From: Desulfobacca acetoxidans DSM 11109
GTDB lineage: Bacteria; Desulfobacterota; Desulfobaccia; Desulfobaccales; Desulfobaccaceae
Assembly: GCF_000195295.1 (NCBI RefSeq)
Contig: NC_015388.1
Location: forward strand, 496,001-560,000
Length of the DNA stretch: 64,000 bases
Direction: 5' to 3'
A program made the translations under genes and the position numbers. Shown piece after piece: positions 27,801 to 40,442 of this stretch. Below the pieces are notes generated by a model. It made no database searches, was not told the origin of the DNA, and worked only from the letters and a program-made list of their open reading frames with translations. Numbering within the stretch: the stretch's first letter is position 1; each line of letters begins with the position of its first letter.

Positions 27801-28664
27801 TTATGCTGGTGAAATCATCTTACTGCCATAATCTCTATATACCAGTACCGGACGCGTAGTCAGGCGCACCAGATTAAGGGCCTCGTCACTGATGATTTTG
27901 AGGTACTTGGGACGTTGATGGCCATAAGCGCCCAGGACCAGCAGATCATACCGCTGCACTGCAACAGCCTTTAAAATTTCGTCCACAAAGTCGCCTTTGG
28001 CCACCTTCTTGATCGGGGTGTAGCCCCACTCCCGCAGGGTGTCTTCCCCGGTAAGCACGCAGGCCTGGGCAAACTCCTCGCTCTCCCCTAGTTCGGTTTC
28101 CTGCACGTGCATGATAGTAATTTCCGGCTTCTGTTTGGCAAAGAGAGGGGCAATAAACTGCAACGCTCCCTGATCGCACTGGGAACCACGGTAAGCCACG
28201 AGGATCTTTTGAATAGGACGGAAATTTCTCAGGATCAGCACCGGTTGCAGGGCGTGGTGCAGAATCTTGCTATGGACCGTCCCCAATAGGAATCCCCGGA
28301 GCGAAGAACGTCCGTGGGCCCCCAAGACGATAAGCTCATAGCGGCCCTTTTCGGCAAAATTGAGAATTTCCTCGGTCGGGTCGCCGACGGCGATCTGAGG
28401 CGTGCAGGGAATCTTGCCACCCATGCAGATTTCGCACGACTCCAGAATCGTATCCAATACCTTTTCGGCCTCGGCCGCAACCGCTTGTTCCACATCAGCT
28501 TTAGTGGCGAACGGCGCATAGGAACTATCGGCCACCATCTCCACTACATCGGGCTGAACGTAAAGGGCGTCTACTTTAGCCTCAAAGTGTTCCAGCAGGT
28601 GGCAGGTGCAGCGCAGGGCCTCCTGCGACTCTTCGCTCTGGTCCACAGCAACGAGAATTTTCAT
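27801..28664 (-). CDS. Tandem universal stress protein (UspA-like), copy 1
   Basis: 287 residues forming two UspA-type domains in tandem. Domain 1 begins MKILVAVDQSEESQEALR and ends with the ATP-binding G-x2-G-x9-G-(S/T) pattern (LGAHGRSSLRGFLLGTVHSKIL). Domain 2 begins KILVAYRGSQCDQGALQFI and ends LGAYGHQRPKYLKIISDEAL, where the loop is less canonical. It is the last gene of the putative seven-gene operon starting with tauE. Such proteins bind ATP or AMP and act in stress survival; the specific role is unknown. Confidence 0.88.
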   Translation of the reverse strand: MKILVAVDQSEESQEALRCTCHLLEHFEAKVDALYVQPDVVEMVADSSYAPFATKADVEQAVAAEAEKVLDTILESCEICMGGKIPCTPQIAVGDPTEEILNFAEKGRYELIVLGAHGRSSLRGFLLGTVHSKILHHALQPVLILRNFRPIQKILVAYRGSQCDQGALQFIAPLFAKQKPEITIMHVQETELGESEEFAQACVLTGEDTLREWGYTPIKKVAKGDFVDEILKAVAVQRYDLLVLGAYGHQRPKYLKIISDEALNLVRLTTRPVLVYRDYGSKMISPA

Positions 28665-28716: not shown

Positions 28717-29580
28717 TTAGCGCATGACCAGCACTGAGGTTTGACACTTACTGACAAAACGCCCCACCCAATCCCGCGGGAAGACCCGGTCCAGCAGGGA
28801 TTTACGCCCCATCCAGAGAGCCAACAGGTCTTGCTGCAATTCATCGGAGACAAAACTTTCAAAATCCCCGATATCCGTAAGCTTAGTAGAGACCTTGATC
28901 TGGCGGTCCTCATAATAGTCGCCGATCTCAATGAGCCGCCGGTAAACATCCTTTTTCATATCACCAGATTGGCTCAGTCCGACCAACTCTACCTCCGCCT
29001 GATGAATCGTGGCTATCTGGTTGATCATCTCCAGCGATTCCTGACTGATATAACTCTGGTCGAGACAGGCCAGGATGCGATTGAGAGGCTGTTCTTCTTT
29101 TACGAGGAGCACCGAACAATCGGCATCGTTTACCACCTTTTGGGGCACTGCGGCCGCGTCCTGCCAGATACATTCCCGTCCCTTGGTGCAGCCCACAATG
29201 ATCAGGTCGGTTTCCTCATCCTTTGCTTCTGCCACGATTTCCTGAACGATATTCCCGACCCGGAAACAGACCCGGACGTCCCTTTTGTCACCCCGGCAGA
29301 CCAGGAGCTCCTCCCAAACCCCGTTTTTTAAGGGAAGCCACTCATAACGCCACTCTTTCCGGGCATAAGGTGAGCCTTCAGCCTCCGAACTTTTTAAAAA
29401 ATGCTCCCGATACCCCTGCAGGGCCTGGATAAGAAGATGATCAGACTTAGGAACCCCTTTATCTCCCGGCGCCACGGCCAACATCGTGACGTCTGCCCAA
29501 GTGTTCCGGGCCAGCCGGATTACCTCTTTAAGGGCATAAGCGCTGTATGGGTGTTCATCACCGGCAAACAGGATTTTCAT
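28717..29580 (-). CDS. Tandem universal stress protein, copy 2
   Basis: 287 residues, again two Usp-like halves: MKILFAGDEHPYSAYALKEV at the start and LNRILACLDQSYISQESLEM in the middle. The first half keeps a partial nucleotide loop (IIVGCTKGREC ... VPQKVV); the second lacks a clean G-x2-G motif. GGGAG precedes its ATG. Same length as the next gene but strongly diverged from it, so any duplication is old. Confidence 0.82.
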   Translation of the reverse strand: MKILFAGDEHPYSAYALKEVIRLARNTWADVTMLAVAPGDKGVPKSDHLLIQALQGYREHFLKSSEAEGSPYARKEWRYEWLPLKNGVWEELLVCRGDKRDVRVCFRVGNIVQEIVAEAKDEETDLIIVGCTKGRECIWQDAAAVPQKVVNDADCSVLLVKEEQPLNRILACLDQSYISQESLEMINQIATIHQAEVELVGLSQSGDMKKDVYRRLIEIGDYYEDRQIKVSTKLTDIGDFESFVSDELQQDLLALWMGRKSLLDRVFPRDWVGRFVSKCQTSVLVMR

Positions 29581-29636: not shown

Positions 29637-30428
29637 TTAAAGCTGAACCAGTAACAGCGGGTTGCTTATCTGCGGCAGCCAGGAAAGTGGGGGAGAGTCT
29701 TTTCTAGTCCCTCTGCCTAGAGCTACGGCCACTAACCCGGAGGTTTTGGAAAGTTCCGGAGGAGGTCCGCCCTCCCCCGGAGTAAAGGCGATTCCCACTG
29801 CCGCCTGGCAGCCTTGGGCCTTCAGATCTGCTACAGCTTTCTGGACCATAGGCAACATATCGTCTCCTCCCCCACCGCTTTTGGCATAGGCCAGATTCAG
29901 GGGGAGAGGGCTTCCGACAAAAAGTCTTTTCAGAGCCTCGACCAGGACCTTGAGGCCCTCGGGATGTAAGCACACTGCCACCACCTGATCAATTTTTCGA
30001 ACGCTCCGAAGCCAGATCAAGGGGCAGATCAAACGCTGGTAAAATTTAGTATGCCAACGCTTATAAATTGTGGCCGGGGTAAAAGGATAAGGCGCTCCCT
30101 CAATGTATAGATCAAAGGGTTCCTGCTCAATGACGTGGAGAAGTTCGATTTCCCGGTCGCCATAGATTACCCGGGGTTCCTGCATGAGCGGGCAGGAGTC
30201 AGTCTCTGCAGAGAGCATCTCCTGAATTTCAATCCGGCCTTTTTCCACGACCTCCCTTTCCCAGCTATAGCGCACCCAACCGACACCGGTTATGGGAAAT
30301 TCGGCAGAGGGAAATTTCACGTAGATCGGGTGGATCTCCATCCGAATCAGGTTGCCCAACTGGCAGGCAAATCGGATGGCAAAGCTGGAGGCTAGGTCCA
30401 CTTCAATGGCTACAAGTGTCTTAACCAT
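29637..30428 (-). CDS. Universal-stress-like protein, degenerate copy 3
   Basis: 263 residues. The N-terminus (VKTLVAIEVDLASSFAIRFA) and the hydrophobic strands FDLYIEG and SGLVAVALG suggest two UspA-like folds, but the ATP-binding G-x2-G-x9-G motif is missing in both. The ATG at 30428 follows AGGAG by 9 nt; a TTG at 30437 would overlap the spacer. It lies between the response regulator and two better-preserved Usp genes. A non-nucleotide-binding partner role is possible; the family call is moderate. Confidence 0.6.
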   Translation of the reverse strand: MVKTLVAIEVDLASSFAIRFACQLGNLIRMEIHPIYVKFPSAEFPITGVGWVRYSWEREVVEKGRIEIQEMLSAETDSCPLMQEPRVIYGDREIELLHVIEQEPFDLYIEGAPYPFTPATIYKRWHTKFYQRLICPLIWLRSVRKIDQVVAVCLHPEGLKVLVEALKRLFVGSPLPLNLAYAKSGGGGDDMLPMVQKAVADLKAQGCQAAVGIAFTPGEGGPPPELSKTSGLVAVALGRGTRKDSPPLSWLPQISNPLLLVQL

Positions 30429-30468
30429 AAATAACAACTCCTTGATGCTTCAAACCGAGGATTAACGT

Positions 30469-30864: not shown

Positions 30865-33435
30865 CTAGGCCAAAGGTGTTTCACGAGTTTGGGAGTCAGG
30901 TTGAAAGAATGACTCCATAAATTGCGGGATGTCGGCGTCGCTCTTCAATTGAATGTCCAGTTGGCGGGTAAACCCGATCAACCGGCCCAATACGATGAGG
31001 CGCGCCTGCATCTCTTCCTGGGGGAGGTGAAGAACCCGAGCCACCACCAGGTCCCCCTTAACATCCACTTTGAAATGAAATTTTGACAGAATGTTAGCCA
31101 GGAGCTGCGCCCGTCGCGATCTTCGAGTCATGTCCGTTACCCCGCCCACGAAGCGGAAATAGATGTGATTGTGCTGCGGCTCCGGATGCATGCGGGCATC
31201 CACCAGATTCAGGTGATAACCCAGCCGTAGATGCAGGTTCAGATAAAATTCACTGATGACCGCCAGGTTGAATCCCATATAGGCCGAGGCGCCGGGCGTT
31301 TCGGCCCGAGTCTGCGTGAGGCTCGACATCATGCCTTTAAAATCTACTGACACCGGCTCAGTACTCCAGACCCCGGGGGCCGAGACTCCTTCCCACAAGG
31401 CCTTGAGAGGCAACGATTGGATACCTTCCGGTAGAACCCGATCTCCTTTTTGAGGAGACGTGATTCCCCCTCCCAGATCCAAAATCTTCAGGTCGAGTGG
31501 TACATCAGAAATCAGAGAAAAAATCTTCACCCCTTTAAATCGCTTTAATAATCTCGGCAGGTCGATCACCTCATTCACAGCCTTTTCATGAATAAAGCGA
31601 ACGACATCATGTACCGACTCGCAGCCCTGGGGGGTGAAATCCACCGCCTGAGGATCGATGATATGCAAAGGGGCGATGCGCTTCAAGAGTCTCCTAAGCT
31701 GCCGAAACTCATGCGTTTCTTCGAAGGCCGGGGTTTTAACCAACTCATAGTGCAGCAGTTCTTTGACCCGGCCGGCATAGACCATCCGCTGCTTGGTATC
31801 TACGGTGATCTTGATACCTGCCGGGAGACGCTCGCACGCTCCTTCCACTCCCACCAGAGTCGGTACCCGGAACTCCCGCGCAATGGTGGCCAGATGTCCC
31901 GCCGCGGAACCCCGCTCCGCAATAATGGCCGCGGCCTTGGGCACCACCGGGGTCAGCCAGGGCGCCGTATATTTGATTACCAGGACTGCTCCTTCCGGAA
32001 AACGGCTGAGTTTGGCCTCAGAATCAACCTGGTAGACTGGACCGGAACCTACTCCGGCATGGGCTACCGCCCCCTGATCTCTCAGAATGACTTGATAGCG
32101 GCTCGCAACTAGAGCAATGTCCTCCTGCGGCGGCATAGCCGTCTTCGAGATATTCATAAACCTCGATTGCAGCAGCCAAAGGGCGCCGCTTTCATCTTGG
32201 GCCCATTCAATCTCCTGGGGCCGCTTAAAATACCTCTCCAGGTGGAGAGCCCATTTGACCAGCGTCTTGATGGCTTCGTCCGACAGTGAGGGATGTCGCT
32301 GTTCTTCCTGGGGAACGGGCACTTCTTCTTCGCCGCCACCCGGCTTCGGCCCTACCATGAACCGCTTGGCGGCGATCTCCCGAACCAGGATATGATTCGA
32401 ATGGTCTTTCTCCAGCACAAACCGGTCGACCGTGGCCCGCCCTTCCGCTACCGAGCGCCCCCACCCGAAAGAGGAATAGATCACCAGGTGATTTGCTCCG
32501 GGACAAGACAAATCCAGGGTTTGAATGACCCCAGCCGCTCGGCTGACAATGGTTTCCTGACAGAGAACGGCCATGGCTGCCTCTTCTCCTAAAAGCCCCA
32601 TCTTTTGCCGGTAGCTCAAGGCACCGGGACTAAAGAGACTGGCCAGCACCTCCTTGTAGGCCGAGATGATCTTCGTCGGTGGCACATGCAGGCGAGTTTC
32701 ATGGAGCCCTGCAAACGACAGTTCGCCGTCTTCGCCATAGGCGCTGCTTCGCACGGCCCAATAAACACCTTCCTTGGCTGTCCGGCGTCTGATCTCCCCT
32801 GCCACTTCCCGGCTCACCAGACCGGCCAAAATGCTGTACTGAATCTGTCGGGACGTCTGTCCGATATCCAACTTTCCGGAAGCCCAAGATTCCAGCCAGG
32901 CATGAATGCGTTCCTCAAGTTGATTGCTCTCCAAAAATCTTCGGTAGGCCCGGGTCGTGATAACAAACCCGGGCGGCGCCGGCAGCTTGAGACTCTGGAG
33001 GACGCGACCCAAGGCGTTTGCCTTGCCGCCCGTCAACTCCGGGTGATCCAAGGGAAGGTCCTGCAAGTCAACCACCAACGCCATCTCATCCGAAAGCAGC
33101 AGCCTTCCTCTTAATTCCGCTTCCAATGGTTGGAAAATGCGATCGAGGGTCGTGTAGAGCTCCAGATAGCGATTGGACGCAATATGGTTCAAGCTGTTCA
33201 CCATACGTAATAACACCGTGTGCATAATTTTTATTGTATCAATGAGATACGTCCGGTCGAAAATGTATTCGCCGCCGGATTTCTCTCCCAGATCGGCAAT
33301 GAGCTCCATAACCTGCTGATGATCCTGTAATAGTGTTTGGAATTGCTCAAAGATTCCGGGAAATGATGCCGCCTCCGGTTTCGACCGGCGAATTCTTTCC
33401 AATAACCTTTTCAAGGACGTAAGCAGATACGCCAT
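30865..33435 (-). CDS. PEP synthase-like phosphotransferase with novel C-terminus
   Basis: 856 residues. Residues 1-130 are helical and unlike PpsA. Then comes a PEP synthase/PPDK-type ATP-grasp domain (LTGGKANALGRVLQSLKLPA, APPGFVITT; YWAVRSSAYGEDGELSFAGL; EIEWAQDESGALWLLQSR) and a swivelling phospho-His domain with His514 in RGSAAGHLATIAREFRVPT. The usual PEP/pyruvate-binding TIM barrel is absent; about 250 residues of unfamiliar sequence (SVHDVVRFIHEKAVNEVIDL ... HMHPEPQHNH-like region ... FHFKVDVKGDLVVAR) follow instead. So the phosphate acceptor may not be pyruvate. The ATG at 33435 has GAGG upstream; a GTG at 33459 is an alternative start. Confidence 0.75.
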   Translation of the reverse strand: MAYLLTSLKRLLERIRRSKPEAASFPGIFEQFQTLLQDHQQVMELIADLGEKSGGEYIFDRTYLIDTIKIMHTVLLRMVNSLNHIASNRYLELYTTLDRIFQPLEAELRGRLLLSDEMALVVDLQDLPLDHPELTGGKANALGRVLQSLKLPAPPGFVITTRAYRRFLESNQLEERIHAWLESWASGKLDIGQTSRQIQYSILAGLVSREVAGEIRRRTAKEGVYWAVRSSAYGEDGELSFAGLHETRLHVPPTKIISAYKEVLASLFSPGALSYRQKMGLLGEEAAMAVLCQETIVSRAAGVIQTLDLSCPGANHLVIYSSFGWGRSVAEGRATVDRFVLEKDHSNHILVREIAAKRFMVGPKPGGGEEEVPVPQEEQRHPSLSDEAIKTLVKWALHLERYFKRPQEIEWAQDESGALWLLQSRFMNISKTAMPPQEDIALVASRYQVILRDQGAVAHAGVGSGPVYQVDSEAKLSRFPEGAVLVIKYTAPWLTPVVPKAAAIIAERGSAAGHLATIAREFRVPTLVGVEGACERLPAGIKITVDTKQRMVYAGRVKELLHYELVKTPAFEETHEFRQLRRLLKRIAPLHIIDPQAVDFTPQGCESVHDVVRFIHEKAVNEVIDLPRLLKRFKGVKIFSLISDVPLDLKILDLGGGITSPQKGDRVLPEGIQSLPLKALWEGVSAPGVWSTEPVSVDFKGMMSSLTQTRAETPGASAYMGFNLAVISEFYLNLHLRLGYHLNLVDARMHPEPQHNHIYFRFVGGVTDMTRRSRRAQLLANILSKFHFKVDVKGDLVVARVLHLPQEEMQARLIVLGRLIGFTRQLDIQLKSDADIPQFMESFFQPDSQTRETPLA

Positions 33436-33479
33436 GTTTCCCGCCTCAAGACCTTCCACCAGAGTTGAGAGGCCCTGCT

Positions 33480-34250
33480 CTAATGACCCCCTCCGCCTTT
33501 AAAGAGGTGTCCCATAACGAAACCGGTCAGAATGGCAATGACTACCGCCAGGACGCCATAAATAACCGAGTGCTGGTAGGCCAACGACATGAACAGAGCC
33601 GGGAAGCCTACCATTTTCACGGACAGAGCCATACACTGCCGTTCCACCAACCTGTCTCCAGCAACGGCCATCAGGCAGACCGAATAGGTATCGGGCTTTA
33701 CATTGGCAGGAAGCCAGAAGCTTCCAATAACTGACAAGCGGCCGTCCTTGGCCGGTGATACCTTGAGTCCCTCGGGCACCGCGGCATAGAGCTCCTCGCT
33801 TTCTTTCAACCTCAGAAATTGATCCCGCAACTTGTCCTCCTGGCCCGCCGGCACCTGCCCGGCGACCGTAATACGCTGCCTCATAGCTCCGAATCCCCAA
33901 GACGCGGCCCCAGTTAAAAGATCCGAGGCGCTGGCCAGAATAAGATAGAGTGATGGAGCACCGCTGATTTTCAACTCTCCCACATTCATCCACAGCGGCC
34001 CTCGGCGCCCTTTGCGCATCAGAATTTCCTCTCCAGTCGGTCCCACTATCTCCGCTACTGCCTCGTGCCCAGCAGGTATTGTTCCGGTAATGGCAACCTC
34101 GCATCCCTGATAGAAGGAATTGATTTCCACTACCGCCGGGTTTAGCTTCAAAGTGACCGATTCAGCCCGGACGGAACCAATCAGGTTTAAAAGCAAAAAG
34201 ATTGTCAACCCCCAGATAATCGCCGCTCTTTTTCCTACTCCTTCCTGCAT
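33480..34250 (-). CDS. TIGR02186-type predicted membrane protein
   Basis: 256 residues: an N-terminal signal or anchor (GLTIFLLLNLIGSVRAES, cleavage after Ala near residue 29), a long extracytoplasmic beta-rich domain (PAVVEINSFYQGCEVAITGT...), and a single C-terminal membrane helix (SVIYGVLAVVIAILTGFVMG). This layout matches the TIGR02186 family, often encoded next to TauE/SafE exporters as here. Only 1 nt separates it from the exporter gene. Function unknown; an accessory to the exporter is plausible. Confidence 0.75.
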   Translation of the reverse strand: MQEGVGKRAAIIWGLTIFLLLNLIGSVRAESVTLKLNPAVVEINSFYQGCEVAITGTIPAGHEAVAEIVGPTGEEILMRKGRRGPLWMNVGELKISGAPSLYLILASASDLLTGAASWGFGAMRQRITVAGQVPAGQEDKLRDQFLRLKESEELYAAVPEGLKVSPAKDGRLSVIGSFWLPANVKPDTYSVCLMAVAGDRLVERQCMALSVKMVGFPALFMSLAYQHSVIYGVLAVVIAILTGFVMGHLFKGGGGH

Positions 34251-34251
34251 C

Positions 34252-35181
34252 TCAGTGTCCCCCCTTGTAACTCAGCATCAGGTGCGGGGGCCAGACCAGA
34301 CCCACGAGAATCTGCACCATCACGACGAGCACGATGGAGGCCAGGAGAATCTTCAATTGGTCCGCCTTAAGATGACGGCTGAGGCGGGCTCCGAACTGCG
34401 CCCCCAGAGTGGAGCCCAAGAGCAGAATAATGGCCAGAACCAGATCCACCGTATGATTGGTAATGGCCTGCATCACGGTAACATTGATACAGGTAAAGAG
34501 GATCTGAAAAAGACTCGTGCCCACCACCACATGCATCGGCATGCGCAACAGGTAGACCATGACCGGCACCATGATGAAGCCTCCACCCACACCCATAATC
34601 GCCGCCAGTACCCCTACAAAAACACCCAGGATCAGAGGCAGGAAACCGGAAAGGGTGATGCCGGACTTCTCGAATTTCATCTGCCACGGCAGGGCTTGAA
34701 TCAGACGGGCATATGCCGAAGGCCGGGAAGGACCTGTCGGCCTTGCCTCCGGAACCTTCTGACGCATACTCTGAAGGCTTTCCACAAACATGTAGGAGCC
34801 GATAACCCCTAACATGATGACATAAGTGATTTTGATGACAAAATCTGCATTCCCCATGGCCCTGAGAACCATGATGAGCTGCACCCCCAGAGTACCACCC
34901 ACCACTCCGCCCAGAAGCAGCAGAAAACCCATCTTGAAGTCTACGTTGCCCAAGCGATAGTGAGCATAAGTTCCTGAGGTTGATGCCGCCACAATCTGAT
35001 TCGAATCACTGGCTGCTGCCACGGTGGAGGGTATACCCGCCATAATGAGCAGGGGCGTCATCAAAAACCCACCCCCGACGCCAAAGAGCCCGGAGAGAAA
35101 CCCTACCGCCCCTCCCAACCCAAAGAGCACTAATATGTTAATGGCATTACCAGAAATAGGCAGATACAGACTCAATACCAT
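34252..35181 (-). CDS. TauE/SafE-family sulfite/sulfonate exporter
   Basis: 309-residue inner-membrane transporter of the TauE/SafE (DUF81) family. Two homologous halves each carry the signature: GFLSGLFGVGGGFLMTPLL near the start and GVLAAIMGVGGGFIMVPVM in the middle, with about eight helices. The family exports sulfite, sulfonates or related anions; the substrate here is unproven, but a sulfur anion would suit a sulfate reducer. The ATG at 35181 with GGGGAG upstream is preferred over an in-frame ATG at 35250. It is the first gene after the sigma-54-type promoter. Confidence 0.88.
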   Translation of the reverse strand: MVLSLYLPISGNAINILVLFGLGGAVGFLSGLFGVGGGFLMTPLLIMAGIPSTVAAASDSNQIVAASTSGTYAHYRLGNVDFKMGFLLLLGGVVGGTLGVQLIMVLRAMGNADFVIKITYVIMLGVIGSYMFVESLQSMRQKVPEARPTGPSRPSAYARLIQALPWQMKFEKSGITLSGFLPLILGVFVGVLAAIMGVGGGFIMVPVMVYLLRMPMHVVVGTSLFQILFTCINVTVMQAITNHTVDLVLAIILLLGSTLGAQFGARLSRHLKADQLKILLASIVLVVMVQILVGLVWPPHLMLSYKGGH

Positions 35182-35279
35182 ACCACACTCTCCCCTTTCG
35201 GTATCGATAAAAACCCTTGCCTTGTGATGCCTTGCACTCCCACACCACACCCGACTTCTATCAGCCTTACTAAGGTATT

Positions 35280-35295
35280 AGCATCAAACATGCCA
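35280..35295 (-). promoter_or_regulatory. Sigma-54 (-24/-12) promoter of the tauE operon
   Basis: On the minus strand the sequence reads TGGCATG-TTTG-ATGCT, matching the consensus TGGCACG-N4-TTGCA with the invariant GG and GC at exact spacing. It lies about 99 bp before the tauE start. Together with the two upstream palindromes and a GAFTGA-bearing activator gene next door, the call is strong for a sequence-only prediction. Confidence 0.8.
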
Positions 35296-35357: not shown

Positions 35358-35435
35358 TGTTTCATTATGAAATTTTATCTGACTTTAGTGGAGAAAGAAT
35401 GGAATGAAGCGTGGAAACTGTTTCAGTATGAAACG
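35358..35435. promoter_or_regulatory. Paired upstream activator sites
   Basis: Two near-identical palindromes, TGTTTCATTATGAAATT (35358-35374) and TGTTTCAGTATGAAACG (35419-35435), are 61 bp apart, about six helical turns. They sit 63-155 bp upstream of the -24/-12 promoter, the usual place for bacterial enhancer-binding protein sites. The consensus is TGTTTCAnTATGAAAy. Confidence 0.75.
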
Positions 35436-35475: not shown

Positions 35476-36813
35476 TTACGCCTTGGATAGATTATATTTC
35501 TTCATCTTGCGCCACAGGGTGGTGCGCGGCAGATTAAGGATGCGGGCTGTGTCGCCCACATTAAAGTTGGTATGCCGTAGAACCCTCAGGATATACTCCC
35601 GTTCCCGATCTTCCAGGGTGGTGTACGGCTCGGAAGAATCTCGCACGGATTCCCGCATCTCCGGTGGCAGTTCAGCTACGGTGATGGTTTCCCCTTCGGC
35701 CAGGGCTACAGCCCGTTCCAGGAGGTTTTTCAGTTCGCGGACGTTTCCGGGATAGTCGTAGGAGAGGAGTATCTCCCGGACGTCCGGGTTAAATATCCTG
35801 ACCTGTTTGCCAAATCTGTGGCTGTAGCGAGAGAGAAAGAATTGCATCAACAGAGGAATATCTTCGGGACGGTCTGCCAGCCGCGGCAGGGTGATTTCCA
35901 CTACCTTGAGGCGGAAGAAGAGGTCCTCTCGAAACCTCCCGGCCTGTACTTCCTGCTTCAATTCTTTATTGGTAGCGGCGATAAAGCGGAGATCAAGCTG
36001 GATAGGGCGGCTGGCCCCCACCCGGAATATCCGGCGGTCTTGGATGACCCGCAGGAGTTTCGCCTGCATGGATAGAGGCATATCGCCGATTTCATCCATA
36101 AAAATGGTGCCATGGTGGGCCGCCTCCATGAAACCGATCTTGGTCGCCGTGGCTCCGGTGAAAGCACCCCGTTCGTAACCGAAGAGTTCGCTGGCAATCA
36201 GCTCCTCGGTAAAACCGGCGCAATTGAACGCTAAAAAGGGCTGATCCCGGCGGGAGCTTTCCCGGTGGATGAGGCGCGCCACGAGTTCCTTGCCGGTGCC
36301 GCTTTCGCCCTGAATGAGGACGCTACAATCCAGGGGGGCCACCTTGCGGACCATCTGGAACACCTCTTTCATAACCGGGCTGACTCCGATCATCTCTTCC
36401 CAGCCCTGCAGGGGCTCAAGGCGCGCTTTGAGTTGGCGATTTTCCTCTAAAAGTCGTTTGTGCTCCAGGGCCTTCCGGGTCAGGTGCCGGATCTCTTCCA
36501 GTCTCAAAGGCTTGGAGACATAATGAAAAGCGCCCAGTTTCACGGCTTCGATGGCTGCGTCCAGGGAGGCATGCCCAGTGATGAGAATAACTTCCAGGTC
36601 AGGGGTGCGCGCCTTGATAGACTGCAGGATTTCCATGCCGCCGAGCCCCGGAAGGATCACGTCCAGAAAGACCAAATCAAAGGAGGCCCCTTCCAGGCTT
36701 CCCAAGAAGGCCTCTCCGGAAGGGTAAGTCTGCACCCGGTGCCCCTCCTTCTCCAGGGTCTTCTGCAGGCGCTTTCGGACAATCTCCTCATCATCAACGA
36801 CGGCAATACGCAT
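35476..36813 (-). CDS. NtrC-type sigma-54 response regulator
   Basis: 445 residues. Receiver domain with phospho-acceptor Asp51 (LVFLDVILPG), a sigma-54 AAA+ domain with Walker A GESGTGKE, the sigma-54 contact loop GAFTGA, Walker B TIFMDEIGDM, an R-finger segment (FREDLFFRL), and a C-terminal Fis-type helix-turn-helix (DTARILNLPRTTLWRKMKKY). It activates sigma-54 promoters when phosphorylated. It follows its kinase by 12 nt and ends 41 bp from the nearer palindromic site, so control of the tauE operon is the natural inference. Confidence 0.95.
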   Translation of the reverse strand: MRIAVVDDEEIVRKRLQKTLEKEGHRVQTYPSGEAFLGSLEGASFDLVFLDVILPGLGGMEILQSIKARTPDLEVILITGHASLDAAIEAVKLGAFHYVSKPLRLEEIRHLTRKALEHKRLLEENRQLKARLEPLQGWEEMIGVSPVMKEVFQMVRKVAPLDCSVLIQGESGTGKELVARLIHRESSRRDQPFLAFNCAGFTEELIASELFGYERGAFTGATATKIGFMEAAHHGTIFMDEIGDMPLSMQAKLLRVIQDRRIFRVGASRPIQLDLRFIAATNKELKQEVQAGRFREDLFFRLKVVEITLPRLADRPEDIPLLMQFFLSRYSHRFGKQVRIFNPDVREILLSYDYPGNVRELKNLLERAVALAEGETITVAELPPEMRESVRDSSEPYTTLEDREREYILRVLRHTNFNVGDTARILNLPRTTLWRKMKKYNLSKA

Positions 36814-36825
36814 AGTCTTCTCGAG

Positions 36826-38271
36826 CTAAGAGCAATGATCTCCTTTGGCAATCGGCAGGGTTATGGTGAAGACGGTTCCCTCCCCTTTTTTACTGTGAGC
36901 CTCTATGTGGCCTCCATGTTTTTCGATGATGCCATAGGTTACCGACAGGCCGAGACCCGTACCCCGACCTACTTCTTTCGTCGTATAAAAAGGATCAAAT
37001 ATGCGGGGCAGGTGCTCGGGATCAATACCGGCGCCGGTGTCCCCGACATCAATTTTCAGCCAGTGATCCTCTTCCGGGTACACCTTGATACGTAAATAAC
37101 CACCGTCAGGCATGGCCTGTATGGCATTGATAAAAATATTCAGAAAAACCTGCTGCAGGCTCTTGCGGTCTCCGGAAATCAGCGGCATCTCTGCCGGAAC
37201 CTCCTTGTCAACCTGAATACCGGAGAGCATCAATTGGTTGCGTACCAATTTGAGAGTTTCATCGACTACCGCAGGAATGGTCAAAAGCTCAAATTCCGGC
37301 CGCTCAGAGCGGGAAAAATCCAGCAACCCTTTGACAATTTCGGAAGCCCTATCCGCCTGCACCAGGATATCATGCAACAGGCTCACGGCCTCCTCCTCTC
37401 CTACATGACGGAAATCCTCCTTCAGGGTTTCGGCCGTCAGCACAATATTATTAATGGGATTGTTCAATTCATGAGCGATGCCGGACGTCAGGGTGCCGAT
37501 AGCGGCGATCTTGCGGGATTGCAGCAGCTGTTCCTGATGCTCTTCCAGCTCCTGGATCATTCGGTTAAAGGCCCGAAACAGACTGCGAAATTCTTCGGAA
37601 CGGCTGGATATCGGGATGGGAGAATAATCTCCATGGGCAATTCTCTCCATCGCCCCCTGCATCTGATTCATAGGACGCACCAATAACCGGGCCAGATAAA
37701 ATGCCACCAGAATGCCCAATACCACGAAGATGCCGATCGAGACCAGAAAAAGATAGATGGCCCGCTGGAATAGTAGGTCGATCTGAACCCGTTCCTCTTT
37801 CTGCCAGCGCTCCGTCACCTCAACCAATTTCTGACCCAGATTGCGCAGGGAATCCTCCAACTTAGAAAAATCTGATGATCCATCTCCGCCGCGCAGGAGA
37901 ATCTGGCTCTGAATCCGGGTCAAAACGGTTTTATAGGCTGACAAGGTGTGACCGAACTCCGGGTCTTTGGAGCCCTGTTTCAAGCGCAGTATTTCTTCGA
38001 CATGGCTGTTATAGAGATCGTCTACCCGCTGCACGAACGACATCGCCTCTTGTAGGCTGACGGGCTGTTTATACAGGAAGAAGTTTTTTTCAAAGCGCCG
38101 CGCCTCCAGGATATTGGAAAAGAGATCACCGGCCAGCTCCAGGAGCCGGAGGCGCCGCCCGATATCCCGATGTATCTGAAAACTGAAACCGGCAAAAACC
38201 ACCACCGACATAACGCAGAAGAGAAAGAGGGTGATCACCCGGTGCCTGATTTTGAATGCAGCCTTATCCAC
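36826..38271 (-). CDS. Membrane sensor histidine kinase paired with the NtrC regulator
   Basis: 481 residues. TM1 (about 12-32), a periplasmic helical sensor of about 140 residues (FSNILEARRFEKNFFLYKQP suggests a four-helix bundle), TM2 (about 170-195, YLFLVSIGIFVVLGILVAFY), HAMP (RPMNQMQGAMERIAHGDYSP), HisKA with His267 (SGIAHELNNPINNI) and HATPase (DTGAGI, GRGTGLGLS). The AGGAGG site gives proper spacing to the GTG at 38271 rather than the TTG one codon earlier. It forms a clear pair with the downstream NtrC gene. Confidence 0.93.
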   Translation of the reverse strand: MDKAAFKIRHRVITLFLFCVMSVVVFAGFSFQIHRDIGRRLRLLELAGDLFSNILEARRFEKNFFLYKQPVSLQEAMSFVQRVDDLYNSHVEEILRLKQGSKDPEFGHTLSAYKTVLTRIQSQILLRGGDGSSDFSKLEDSLRNLGQKLVEVTERWQKEERVQIDLLFQRAIYLFLVSIGIFVVLGILVAFYLARLLVRPMNQMQGAMERIAHGDYSPIPISSRSEEFRSLFRAFNRMIQELEEHQEQLLQSRKIAAIGTLTSGIAHELNNPINNIVLTAETLKEDFRHVGEEEAVSLLHDILVQADRASEIVKGLLDFSRSERPEFELLTIPAVVDETLKLVRNQLMLSGIQVDKEVPAEMPLISGDRKSLQQVFLNIFINAIQAMPDGGYLRIKVYPEEDHWLKIDVGDTGAGIDPEHLPRIFDPFYTTKEVGRGTGLGLSVTYGIIEKHGGHIEAHSKKGEGTVFTITLPIAKGDHCS

Positions 38272-38403
38272 CAAAACCTCCTGAAACGGACCGATGCCTT
38301 TGGCTGTCCGGCTTGACGCCTTTTGGAGGAAGAATATACCAAATAATATATGTAAGCCAACAACATAAATAGATATAAAATGTGTCAGACACTTATTATT
38401 AAC

Positions 38404-38446: not shown

Positions 38447-38522
<76 letters not shown>

Positions 38523-38726: not shown

Positions 38727-40442
38727 ATGGCTGGATACAGAATTTTGCTGGTTGACCTCGCCGCCGAAGACTATCAGGCGTTGGCGGAGATCCTGACTTC
38801 AGAAGGACATGAACTATTCCTCCTGCCGGAGCACAGCGATGCCCTGATGGAAGCGCAACAATTCTCTCCTGATCTGGTCATCCTCAATATTCAAACGGAA
38901 TTCGGATTACAGCGTTTCCGGGAACTCAAGAGCCAGGACTTTTTAAAACACCTTCCTTTCATTTTCATCATCGCCACCCACCGCACTGATCTTGCCGCTC
39001 GCAGTTTGGAAATCGGCGCCGAGGATTTTATCCTGAAGCCTTTTCAGGGAGGTGAAATACTGGCCCGCATTGCAGTCGCCCTCAAGGTTCGGGAACATGA
39101 GTTGCGGCTGCAGGCGGTTCGGGATCGTTATCGGCGCCTCTTTGAGGATAGTCCCCAGGGAATCTTCATCACCGATCAAACCCGTCGCCTGTTGGATTGC
39201 AACCAGGCCCTGAAAGCTCTCTTGGGCTATGAGGCGGCAACCGAGATAACCGAATTCGATCTGGCCGCGGATCTCTTCTATACCCCCGCCGACTATCAGC
39301 GTTTTTACGCCATGCTGAACCGTGAGGGAGAAACCGGCAAGGTCAAGGTAAACCTGAAGCATCGTGACGGCCACAAAGTCACCGTCCTGATGAGCGGCCA
39401 GGTAGTCAAGGGCAAACCGGATCGCGTCATCGCCTATGCCGATGTTGACCTGGATTTATCAGAGGCACCGGCGCACCTGCCCGCTCACATCGCTTCTCTG
39501 AGCGGCCGTCCGTCCCGGAAAAAATCGCTGCTCAATATGATCTCCCGTCTGCTCCCTTTTGCCGGCAACATCCTCTCGGTCCTAAAACTGACGGAACTGT
39601 TGGGTGGACGCTACGAAAAGGTAAAGAAACTAGGACAGGGCAGCTACGGTGAAGTCTGGCTGGTTTTGGATACCGAAGCCGTGGAACAGGATCACTATTA
39701 CGTTGCCAAAATTCCCTTTTCCCGAGGCTATAACAAAAGTTTCCGCAAGGAGGCGGATATCTGCCAGAAACTGGCGCCTCATCCCGGCGCTGTCGCCTTG
39801 ATTGACTCGGTAGAGGAGGCCGGAAGGTTCATCATTATTCAGGAGTATGTCCGGGGCCGCACTCTGCAGGATTTATTGGAGGGAAGAGAATTGCCGGATT
39901 CCTGGAAGGAGCGCATCATCCTGAAGCTGATCGATGTCGTGGCCTTTGCTCACAGCCATCACATCATGCACCGGGACATCAAGCCCAATAACATTATTAT
40001 CGGACCGCATGACACTATCAAACTGTTGGATTACGGCGCGGCCAAGGAACTCAAGGACCGTGATATCAGCGCCACGATGGTGGGTTCGCGGCCTTATATG
40101 GCCCCGGAGCAGATCATGGGCCAAAGCCAGCGCCCCAGCGACGTCTGGGCCATCGGCGTTATTATGTACCTGCTTTATACCGGTCTGCTGCCGTTTTACG
40201 ACGACTTGGAGAAAAACCTCATCGACCTGATCCTGGAAAGCGAGCCGATCCCGCCACACGAGGAAAACCCAGACATTCCGCTGGCTCTGGAGGCCATTAT
40301 CCTCAAGTGCCTGGAAAAAGACCTCAGCAAACGCTATCCCGACGCCCAGGCCCTGCGGGATGACCTTGTGCTTCACTTCCCTTCGTTCGGCGCCGAACCC
40401 GTCGAACTTGAGCAACTGGAGGGAGAACTCCGATCCCCTTGA
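38727..40442 (+). CDS. Receiver-PAS-Ser/Thr protein kinase fusion
   Basis: 571 residues in three parts. Residues 1-125 form a receiver-like domain whose phosphorylation position is Asn54 (LVILNIQTE) instead of Asp; a KPF lysine remains (ILKPFQGG). Residues about 130-250 form a PAS domain (YRRLFEDSPQGIFITDQTRR). Residues about 288-555 form a Hanks-type kinase: GQGSYGEVWLV loop, AKIPF lysine, HRDIKPNN catalytic loop, DYGAAKEL in place of DFG, and MAPEQ. No transmembrane segment. It stands alone between tRNA-Phe and the ABC genes. Probably a phosphorylation-independent receiver gating a kinase; substrate unknown. Confidence 0.9.
   Translation: MAGYRILLVDLAAEDYQALAEILTSEGHELFLLPEHSDALMEAQQFSPDLVILNIQTEFGLQRFRELKSQDFLKHLPFIFIIATHRTDLAARSLEIGAEDFILKPFQGGEILARIAVALKVREHELRLQAVRDRYRRLFEDSPQGIFITDQTRRLLDCNQALKALLGYEAATEITEFDLAADLFYTPADYQRFYAMLNREGETGKVKVNLKHRDGHKVTVLMSGQVVKGKPDRVIAYADVDLDLSEAPAHLPAHIASLSGRPSRKKSLLNMISRLLPFAGNILSVLKLTELLGGRYEKVKKLGQGSYGEVWLVLDTEAVEQDHYYVAKIPFSRGYNKSFRKEADICQKLAPHPGAVALIDSVEEAGRFIIIQEYVRGRTLQDLLEGRELPDSWKERIILKLIDVVAFAHSHHIMHRDIKPNNIIIGPHDTIKLLDYGAAKELKDRDISATMVGSRPYMAPEQIMGQSQRPSDVWAIGVIMYLLYTGLLPFYDDLEKNLIDLILESEPIPPHEENPDIPLALEAIILKCLEKDLSKRYPDAQALRDDLVLHFPSFGAEPVELEQLEGELRSP

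Follow-up and report, generated by a model that had tools for sequence, protein, structure and literature searches.

A protein related to phosphoenolpyruvate (PEP) synthase, hereafter PPSX, was found to lack the PEP/pyruvate barrel and to carry a new C-terminal domain, and the family that it represents was, where sampled, almost confined to sulfate-reducing bacteria. The protein was encoded in a window of 64,000 nucleotides of Desulfobacca acetoxidans DSM 11109 (contig NC_015388.1), in an operon with a TauE/SafE permease and a response regulator. There is about an even chance that, in sulfate reducers, PPSX supplies the phosphotransfer step of a module that is linked to two-component systems and controls TauE/TSUP (sometimes DASS) permeases for sulfur oxyanions. 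Regulation of sulfur-anion transport, rather than a drug-type modification, is the function suggested by the genomic context, by the almost complete confinement to sulfate reducers and by the phenotypes of Desulfovibrio mutants.

The coordinates given for the gene in a preliminary description, 30865-33435, were right, and the gene lies on the minus strand; an alternative upstream GTG start at 33459 would lengthen the protein to 864 aa. As orthologues from the same order (60-77% identical) span the whole frame, PPSX is not a chance ORF. The gene and its parts are:

30865..33435, minus strand: PPSX (PEP-synthase-like, without the barrel), 856 aa, ATG at 33435
33091..33435, minus strand: N-terminal helical bundle, residues 1-115, with four helices (residues 2-109) in the full-length model; also present in paralogues without ATP-grasp
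32134..33084, minus strand: ATP-grasp domain (PF01326), residues 118-434
31750..32091, minus strand: phospho-His swivel domain (PF00391), residues 449-562
31894..31896, minus strand: codon of His514, the predicted phospho-acceptor, His in 89 of 89 relatives
30895..31719, minus strand: new C-terminal domain, residues 573-847, with no sequence matches in Pfam, NCBIfam or PDB
31585..31623, minus strand: C-x3-HD-x2-RF-x-HE motif, residues 605-617

Pfam searches of PPSX returned PPDK_N (PF01326; residues 133-434, E 1.4e-69) and PEP-utilizers (PF00391; residues 479-548, E 4.8e-16), with no match N-terminal of residue 133 or C-terminal of residue 548. PEP synthase was the best NCBIfam match, but its score of 288.7 bits fell far below the cut-off of 598. 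The source genome possessed a separate, conventional, barrel-bearing PEP synthase (L006), so the PPSX of the window is not a missing copy of that enzyme. AlphaFold models were made from about 100 relatives, and the full-length model (pLDDT 85.4) superposed on rifampicin phosphotransferase (RPH; 5hv3, Z 39.5, 417 residues, rmsd 3.1) and on the PEP synthase of Neisseria meningitidis (2ols, Z 37.4, 371 residues, rmsd 4.8), in both cases over PPSX residues 115-557 only. The likeness to RPH proposed in the preliminary description thus did not extend beyond the two domains in common, and the order of the domains is that of PEP synthase: the His domain starts about 15 residues past ATP-grasp, with no drug-binding domain between the two, and the new domain comes next. 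RPH-type drug resistance was rejected because of this order and of the genomic context. The extra N-terminal helical domain announced earlier was present in the model, and the ATP-grasp and phospho-His domains were intact, as had been claimed.

The C-terminal part, when modelled alone (mean pLDDT 84.6, pTM 0.77), contained six main strands with interspersed helices, in the order helices and two strands, a four-strand stretch, a helix, two strands and a helix, and no (beta/alpha)8 arrangement. This structure prediction, which the preliminary description had named as the way to refute its proposal of a missing TIM barrel, bore that proposal out; the unfamiliar C-terminal stretch was likewise confirmed as novel, although it measures about 280-295 residues and not about 250. 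Alignment of the domain with the barrel of the PEP synthase from the same genome gave an hhalign probability of 0.3%, which together with the models ruled out a hidden PEP-binding barrel. Profile searches against PDB sequences yielded nothing above chance level, the matches being a UPF0166 protein, UCH-L5 and ornithine decarboxylase (best E 0.05). The best structural matches of the C-terminal model in PDB, by Foldseek (E 0.028) and by VIA (Z 6.1, 134 residues, rmsd 3.7), were within the usual background, and the scattered weak matches to PAP phosphatase, RecJ, red chlorophyll catabolite reductase and DCoH folds were treated as such. No solved fold therefore appears convincingly similar to the predicted domain, which does not by itself make it a new fold.

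Across 89 aligned relatives, the invariant residues included K138, R229, E235, E410, Q423 and H514 in the ATP-grasp and swivel domains, and H609, D610, H616, H741, F762, G764, G765, R775 and D827 in the C-terminal domain, a pattern expected of a working enzyme with two sites. H514 lies within GSAAGHLATIAREF and aligned with the phospho-His of PEP synthase. PPSX showed all the features by which the family is defined, namely the N-terminal bundle, the ATP-grasp domain, the His domain and the C-terminal domain with the HD-x2-R-x2-H and GYH motifs. Four further full-length paralogues, 34-37% identical to the PPSX of the window, were encoded in the source genome, together with one 408-aa protein consisting of the N-terminal and C-terminal parts only.

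Six family members of about 390-410 aa lacked the ATP-grasp domain and possessed the N-terminal bundle and the C-terminal domain only (locus L156, 7667-8890, minus strand; L161-L164; L166). They fell into two distinct classes, with a TauE neighbour in every case seen. Four adjoined a TauE gene for a protein of 420-430 aa and had lost the HD-x2-R-x2-H motif; a partner, c6, was called in three of these four loci, while in L162 the TauE frame ends with the stretch. The other two faced a TauE of about 340 aa with a partner c4 and kept most of the motif. All six retained GYH/GFH, GG, RR-x-RR and two Asp. From this distribution, the retained core may be the permease- or ligand-linked part of the domain, and the HD-x2-R-x2-H motif the part that meets the phospho-His. 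The c6 partner represents an unnamed family of proteins of about 235-240 aa with two hydrophobic ends, encoded directly beside the long TauE permeases (L047, 2201-2917; L156, 9001-9723; L161, 2733-3431). A longer form of the PPSX family, of about 1060 aa, was encoded at L169 (2074-5253, minus strand) and L170 (1071-4229, plus strand); it has an extra stretch at the C-terminus with a weak resemblance to ConA-like lectin domains. Three family genes stood in tandem at L152 (5246-13624), with a small receiver gene between the first and second copies, and similar triplets were found in two genomes of the Nitratidesulfovibrio group (G043, G046).

In the window, the minus-strand gene order was histidine kinase, sigma-54 response regulator, TauE, Alph_Pro_TM, PPSX, receiver, Usp-like gene and two Usp genes, successive genes from TauE onwards being 1-56 bp apart:

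36826..38274, minus strand: sensor histidine kinase (HAMP, HisKA, HATPase_c domain matches), also in orthologous loci
35476..36813, minus strand: sigma-54-dependent NtrC-type response regulator (PF00158, PF00072, PF02954), in place in orthologous loci
35420..35434, no strand assigned: upstream activator dyad, copy 2, GTTTCATACTGAAAC
35359..35373, no strand assigned: upstream activator dyad, copy 1, ATTTCATAATGAAAC
35280..35295, minus strand: sigma-54-like -24/-12 site TGGCATGTTTGATGCT, upstream of tauE
34252..35250, minus strand: TauE/SafE (TSUP) permease, first gene of the operon (PF01925, E 4.2e-49)
33480..34250, minus strand: Alph_Pro_TM protein (PF09608, E 5.7e-49) with an apparent signal peptide and a C-terminal TM helix
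30469..30855, minus strand: single-domain response regulator (PF00072; D55, K105), 9 bp downstream of PPSX
29637..30437, minus strand: Usp-like gene, without Pfam match, its place conserved in orthologous operons
28717..29580, minus strand: universal stress protein (PF00582)
27801..28664, minus strand: universal stress protein (PF00582)

This order was kept, whole or in part, in seven orthologous loci, so that the co-occurrence with Usp and receiver genes, suggested earlier as a check, proved real. Where full length, TauE was 79-85% identical among the orthologous operons of the order, and the Alph_Pro_TM protein is its putative partner. The sigma-54-like site was the sole match with at most one mismatch in the window, and the dyad (GTTTCAT-NN-TGAAAC), present there in two copies, recurred in four orthologous loci (L171, L172, L174, L176); judging from these elements, the adjacent sigma-54 regulator is probably the activator that drives the PPSX operon. 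An Rfam search found no element within the operon, its sole match being a tRNA at 38450-38522. A 571-aa receiver-PAS-Ser/Thr-kinase fusion, which unusually combines two-component parts with those of a Hanks-type kinase, was encoded at 38727-40442 (plus strand), divergently from the histidine kinase gene.

The neighbourhood survey covered 80 related loci (1.0 Mb) with 103 family genes. Two-component genes were present in 70 of these loci and TauE/SafE permeases in 36, the 47 TauE genes observed comparing with about 2.7 expected from the density in the source genome (about 17 times denser). A small receiver immediately adjoined the family gene, or a histidine kinase or TauE lay within two genes, in 84 of the 103 cases, and none of the three was nearby in the remaining 19. 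Single-domain receivers were immediate neighbours in 41/103 cases and adjoined four of the five copies in the source genome (rough chance 1e-7); the copy at L002 in this genome had no receiver, kinase or TauE nearby. The phospho-Asp was retained in 35 of 37 neighbouring receivers. The products that recurred near family genes were a Cache- and PAS-containing sensor kinase (about 750 aa), a receiver-only protein (about 135 aa), TauE together with small membrane partners, DASS sulfate/carboxylate symporters, and CBS-domain and Usp proteins. As several members adjoined DASS symporters, CBS or GntR genes in place of TauE, the output may differ among paralogues. At L053 (3173-6205) and L054 (3138-6269), the family gene was directly preceded by the gene for a large sigma-54 regulator whose N-terminal sensor region is long; the regulator gene diverged from a TauE operon, and its product resembles the DVU0151 type (PMC4641369). 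An LCIB-type beta carbonic anhydrase was encoded at L078 (2617-3372, minus strand), with the same family in L080, L090 and L106, near the DASS symporter and/or CBS genes by the family gene in Nitrospirota-labelled genomes.

At least 497 loci with the C-terminal domain were detected in a scan of public species genomes, in Desulfobacterota, Nitrospirota, Thermodesulfobacterium and MAGs labelled Acidobacteria, Bacteroidetes and Deferribacteres; the best 80 of them were analysed, and sampling outside Desulfobacterota was biased towards close relatives. The domain was present in 32 of 40 genomes of relatives, at 2-9 copies each (3-9 per genome within the order of the window). In a sample of 118 near-complete Desulfobacterota genomes drawn evenly across the phylum, 47 carried the domain, all of which possessed dsrA, and it occurred in none of the 55 dsrA-negative genomes. 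The aprA gene exceeded the cut-off in 44 of the 47 carriers; the three exceptions (G077, G112 and G116) were MAGs of about 290, 400 and 130 contigs respectively, with a partial aprA in G077 and a weaker match in G116. The associations with dsrA and aprA gave Fisher values of 2e-19 and 5e-23, both of which overstate independence because the genomes are related. Among dsrA-positive genomes, PPSX also tracked aprA (44/49 compared to 3/14; P 2e-6, likewise inflated by relatedness), and aprA was found in all 22 bacterial families having PPSX. Among further carrier genomes, mostly non-Desulfobacterota or of unclear affiliation, 21 of 23 possessed dsrA.

Genetic data from Desulfovibrio bear on the same question. 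Insertional disruption of DVU0246, DVU0247 or DVU0251, annotated as PPDK-like, receiver and TauE respectively, abolished the inhibition of D. vulgaris by nitrate at 100 mM (Korte et al. 2014, PMC4001038), for which the authors proposed a leaky thiosulfate transporter; they also quoted unpublished data according to which G20 cluster mutants were mildly sick on thiosulfate. Simple polarity fails to explain the DVU0246 phenotype, since the permease gene is upstream of DVU0246 and disruption of DVU0245 did not confer nitrate resistance. The same cluster was found at a Nitratidesulfovibrio-group locus (L151), where the receiver has 119 aa (DVU0247 is 360 bp), a dual-specificity phosphatase is also encoded, and the new C-terminal domain is borne by a protein of 876 aa. 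As this cluster contains a true family member, DVU0246, annotated as shorter (2235 bp), is probably one too, on the basis of gene order and composition in the related genome and not of its own sequence.

By homology with PEP synthase, RPH and HpeHI (PMC4844700, PMC12167813), the ATP-grasp domain of PPSX would use ATP to pyrophosphorylate His514, releasing AMP and Pi. The phosphorylated swivel domain would then move to the new C-terminal domain, where the H609-D610/H616/H741/GG764-765/R771-R775/D827 set may bind an acceptor or effector and receive or sense the phosphoryl group. The Cache/PAS histidine kinase and the single-domain receiver from adjacent genes would tune the phosphoryl step, and the outcome would show in the neighbouring permease, in its expression or its activity. 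In this scheme, we infer the phosphorylation chemistry, the identity of the acceptor, the direction of signalling and the transported anion. The earlier idea of a novel acceptor is plausible but incomplete. That PPSX represents a new class of signal transducer, a phospho-His dikinase wired to two-component systems whose acceptor is the regulatory machinery of the permease or a phosphorylated messenger for it, and which is core equipment of sulfate reducers, can be advanced as a tentative and rather doubtful proposal.

A metabolic dikinase of the RPH, HpeHI or PpsAB kind, with a C-terminal domain binding a carbon or sulfur substrate and nearby regulators controlling expression only, would account for the intact set of dikinase catalytic residues and for the superposition of ATP-grasp and swivel on RPH and PEP synthase, and relatives whose third domain was exchanged for new acceptors are known (PMC12167813, PMC4844700). 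We nevertheless hold it to be unlikely, as the neighbours include no conserved metabolic enzyme whereas receivers, histidine kinases and anion permeases recur, the paralogues within a genome differ mainly by their adjoining regulators and permeases, and forms without ATP-grasp persist next to TauE. The receivers could instead exchange phosphoryl groups with PPSX directly, making it an ATP-driven phosphodonor or phosphorelay step between His514 and the adjacent receiver Asp. His-to-Asp transfer is standard chemistry for receivers, and those immediately adjoining the family genes have the canonical Asp and Lys. Such a relay would, however, have no need of a further domain of 280 residues in which a separate set of polar residues is invariant, the adjacent receiver is absent from many members and a histidine kinase is frequently present too, which makes this explanation improbable. 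Lastly, since sulfate activation yields bulk AMP and PPi, the tracking of aprA and the intact ATP-grasp site are compatible with a PEP synthase derivative that senses adenylate charge (ATP/AMP) only and signals by conformation with no true acceptor; the invariant H514 and the C-terminal polar cluster suggest chemistry over mere binding, and we consider a sensor of this kind very improbable. A defence role was rejected, PADLOC having returned no match.

Sulfate reducers need to keep costly anion uptake in step with respiration, and do so with permeases that are poorly assigned; predicting TSUP function in these organisms has been called 'not feasible' (PMC5840216). A multi-copy family that tracks dsrA and aprA across the sampled genomes, near TSUP/DASS permeases and sensor kinases, makes the question of permease function directly testable, the more so with a probable member, DVU0246, that has a strong transport-like phenotype. 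The dikinase superfamily also gains a third domain of a new kind and is extended to a regulatory setting.

Searches of the open literature found no domain name or family description for PPSX. One of the closest described systems is the Desulfovibrio nitrate cluster (DVU0251-DVU0245, Dde_0597-0605), in which TauE, histidine kinase, receiver, PPDK-like protein and dual-specificity phosphatase are encoded in the same order; it was called poorly annotated, and its description included neither the third domain nor the wider family nor the link to sulfate reducers (PMC4001038).

Among enzymes, PPSX shares with PEP synthase (EC 2.7.9.2; PRK06464/TIGR01418) the order from ATP-grasp to central phospho-His and the same catalytic residues, but lacks the PEP/pyruvate barrel and has an extra N-terminal helical bundle. 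Its ATP-grasp and swivel domains superpose on those of RPH (PDB 5hv3, 5fbs), with the third domain exchanged: the order is ATP-grasp, drug domain and His in RPH (PMC4844700), whereas it is ATP-grasp, His and third domain in PPSX, and this third domain aligned to no part of RPH. The phenol-type dikinases HpeHI, CreHI and PpsAB (PMC12167813) resemble PPSX in the predicted chemistry of the ATP-grasp and swivel domains with a non-pyruvate acceptor, but consist of two polypeptides and serve aromatic catabolism, whereas PPSX is a single 856-aa chain encoded in regulatory and permease operons.
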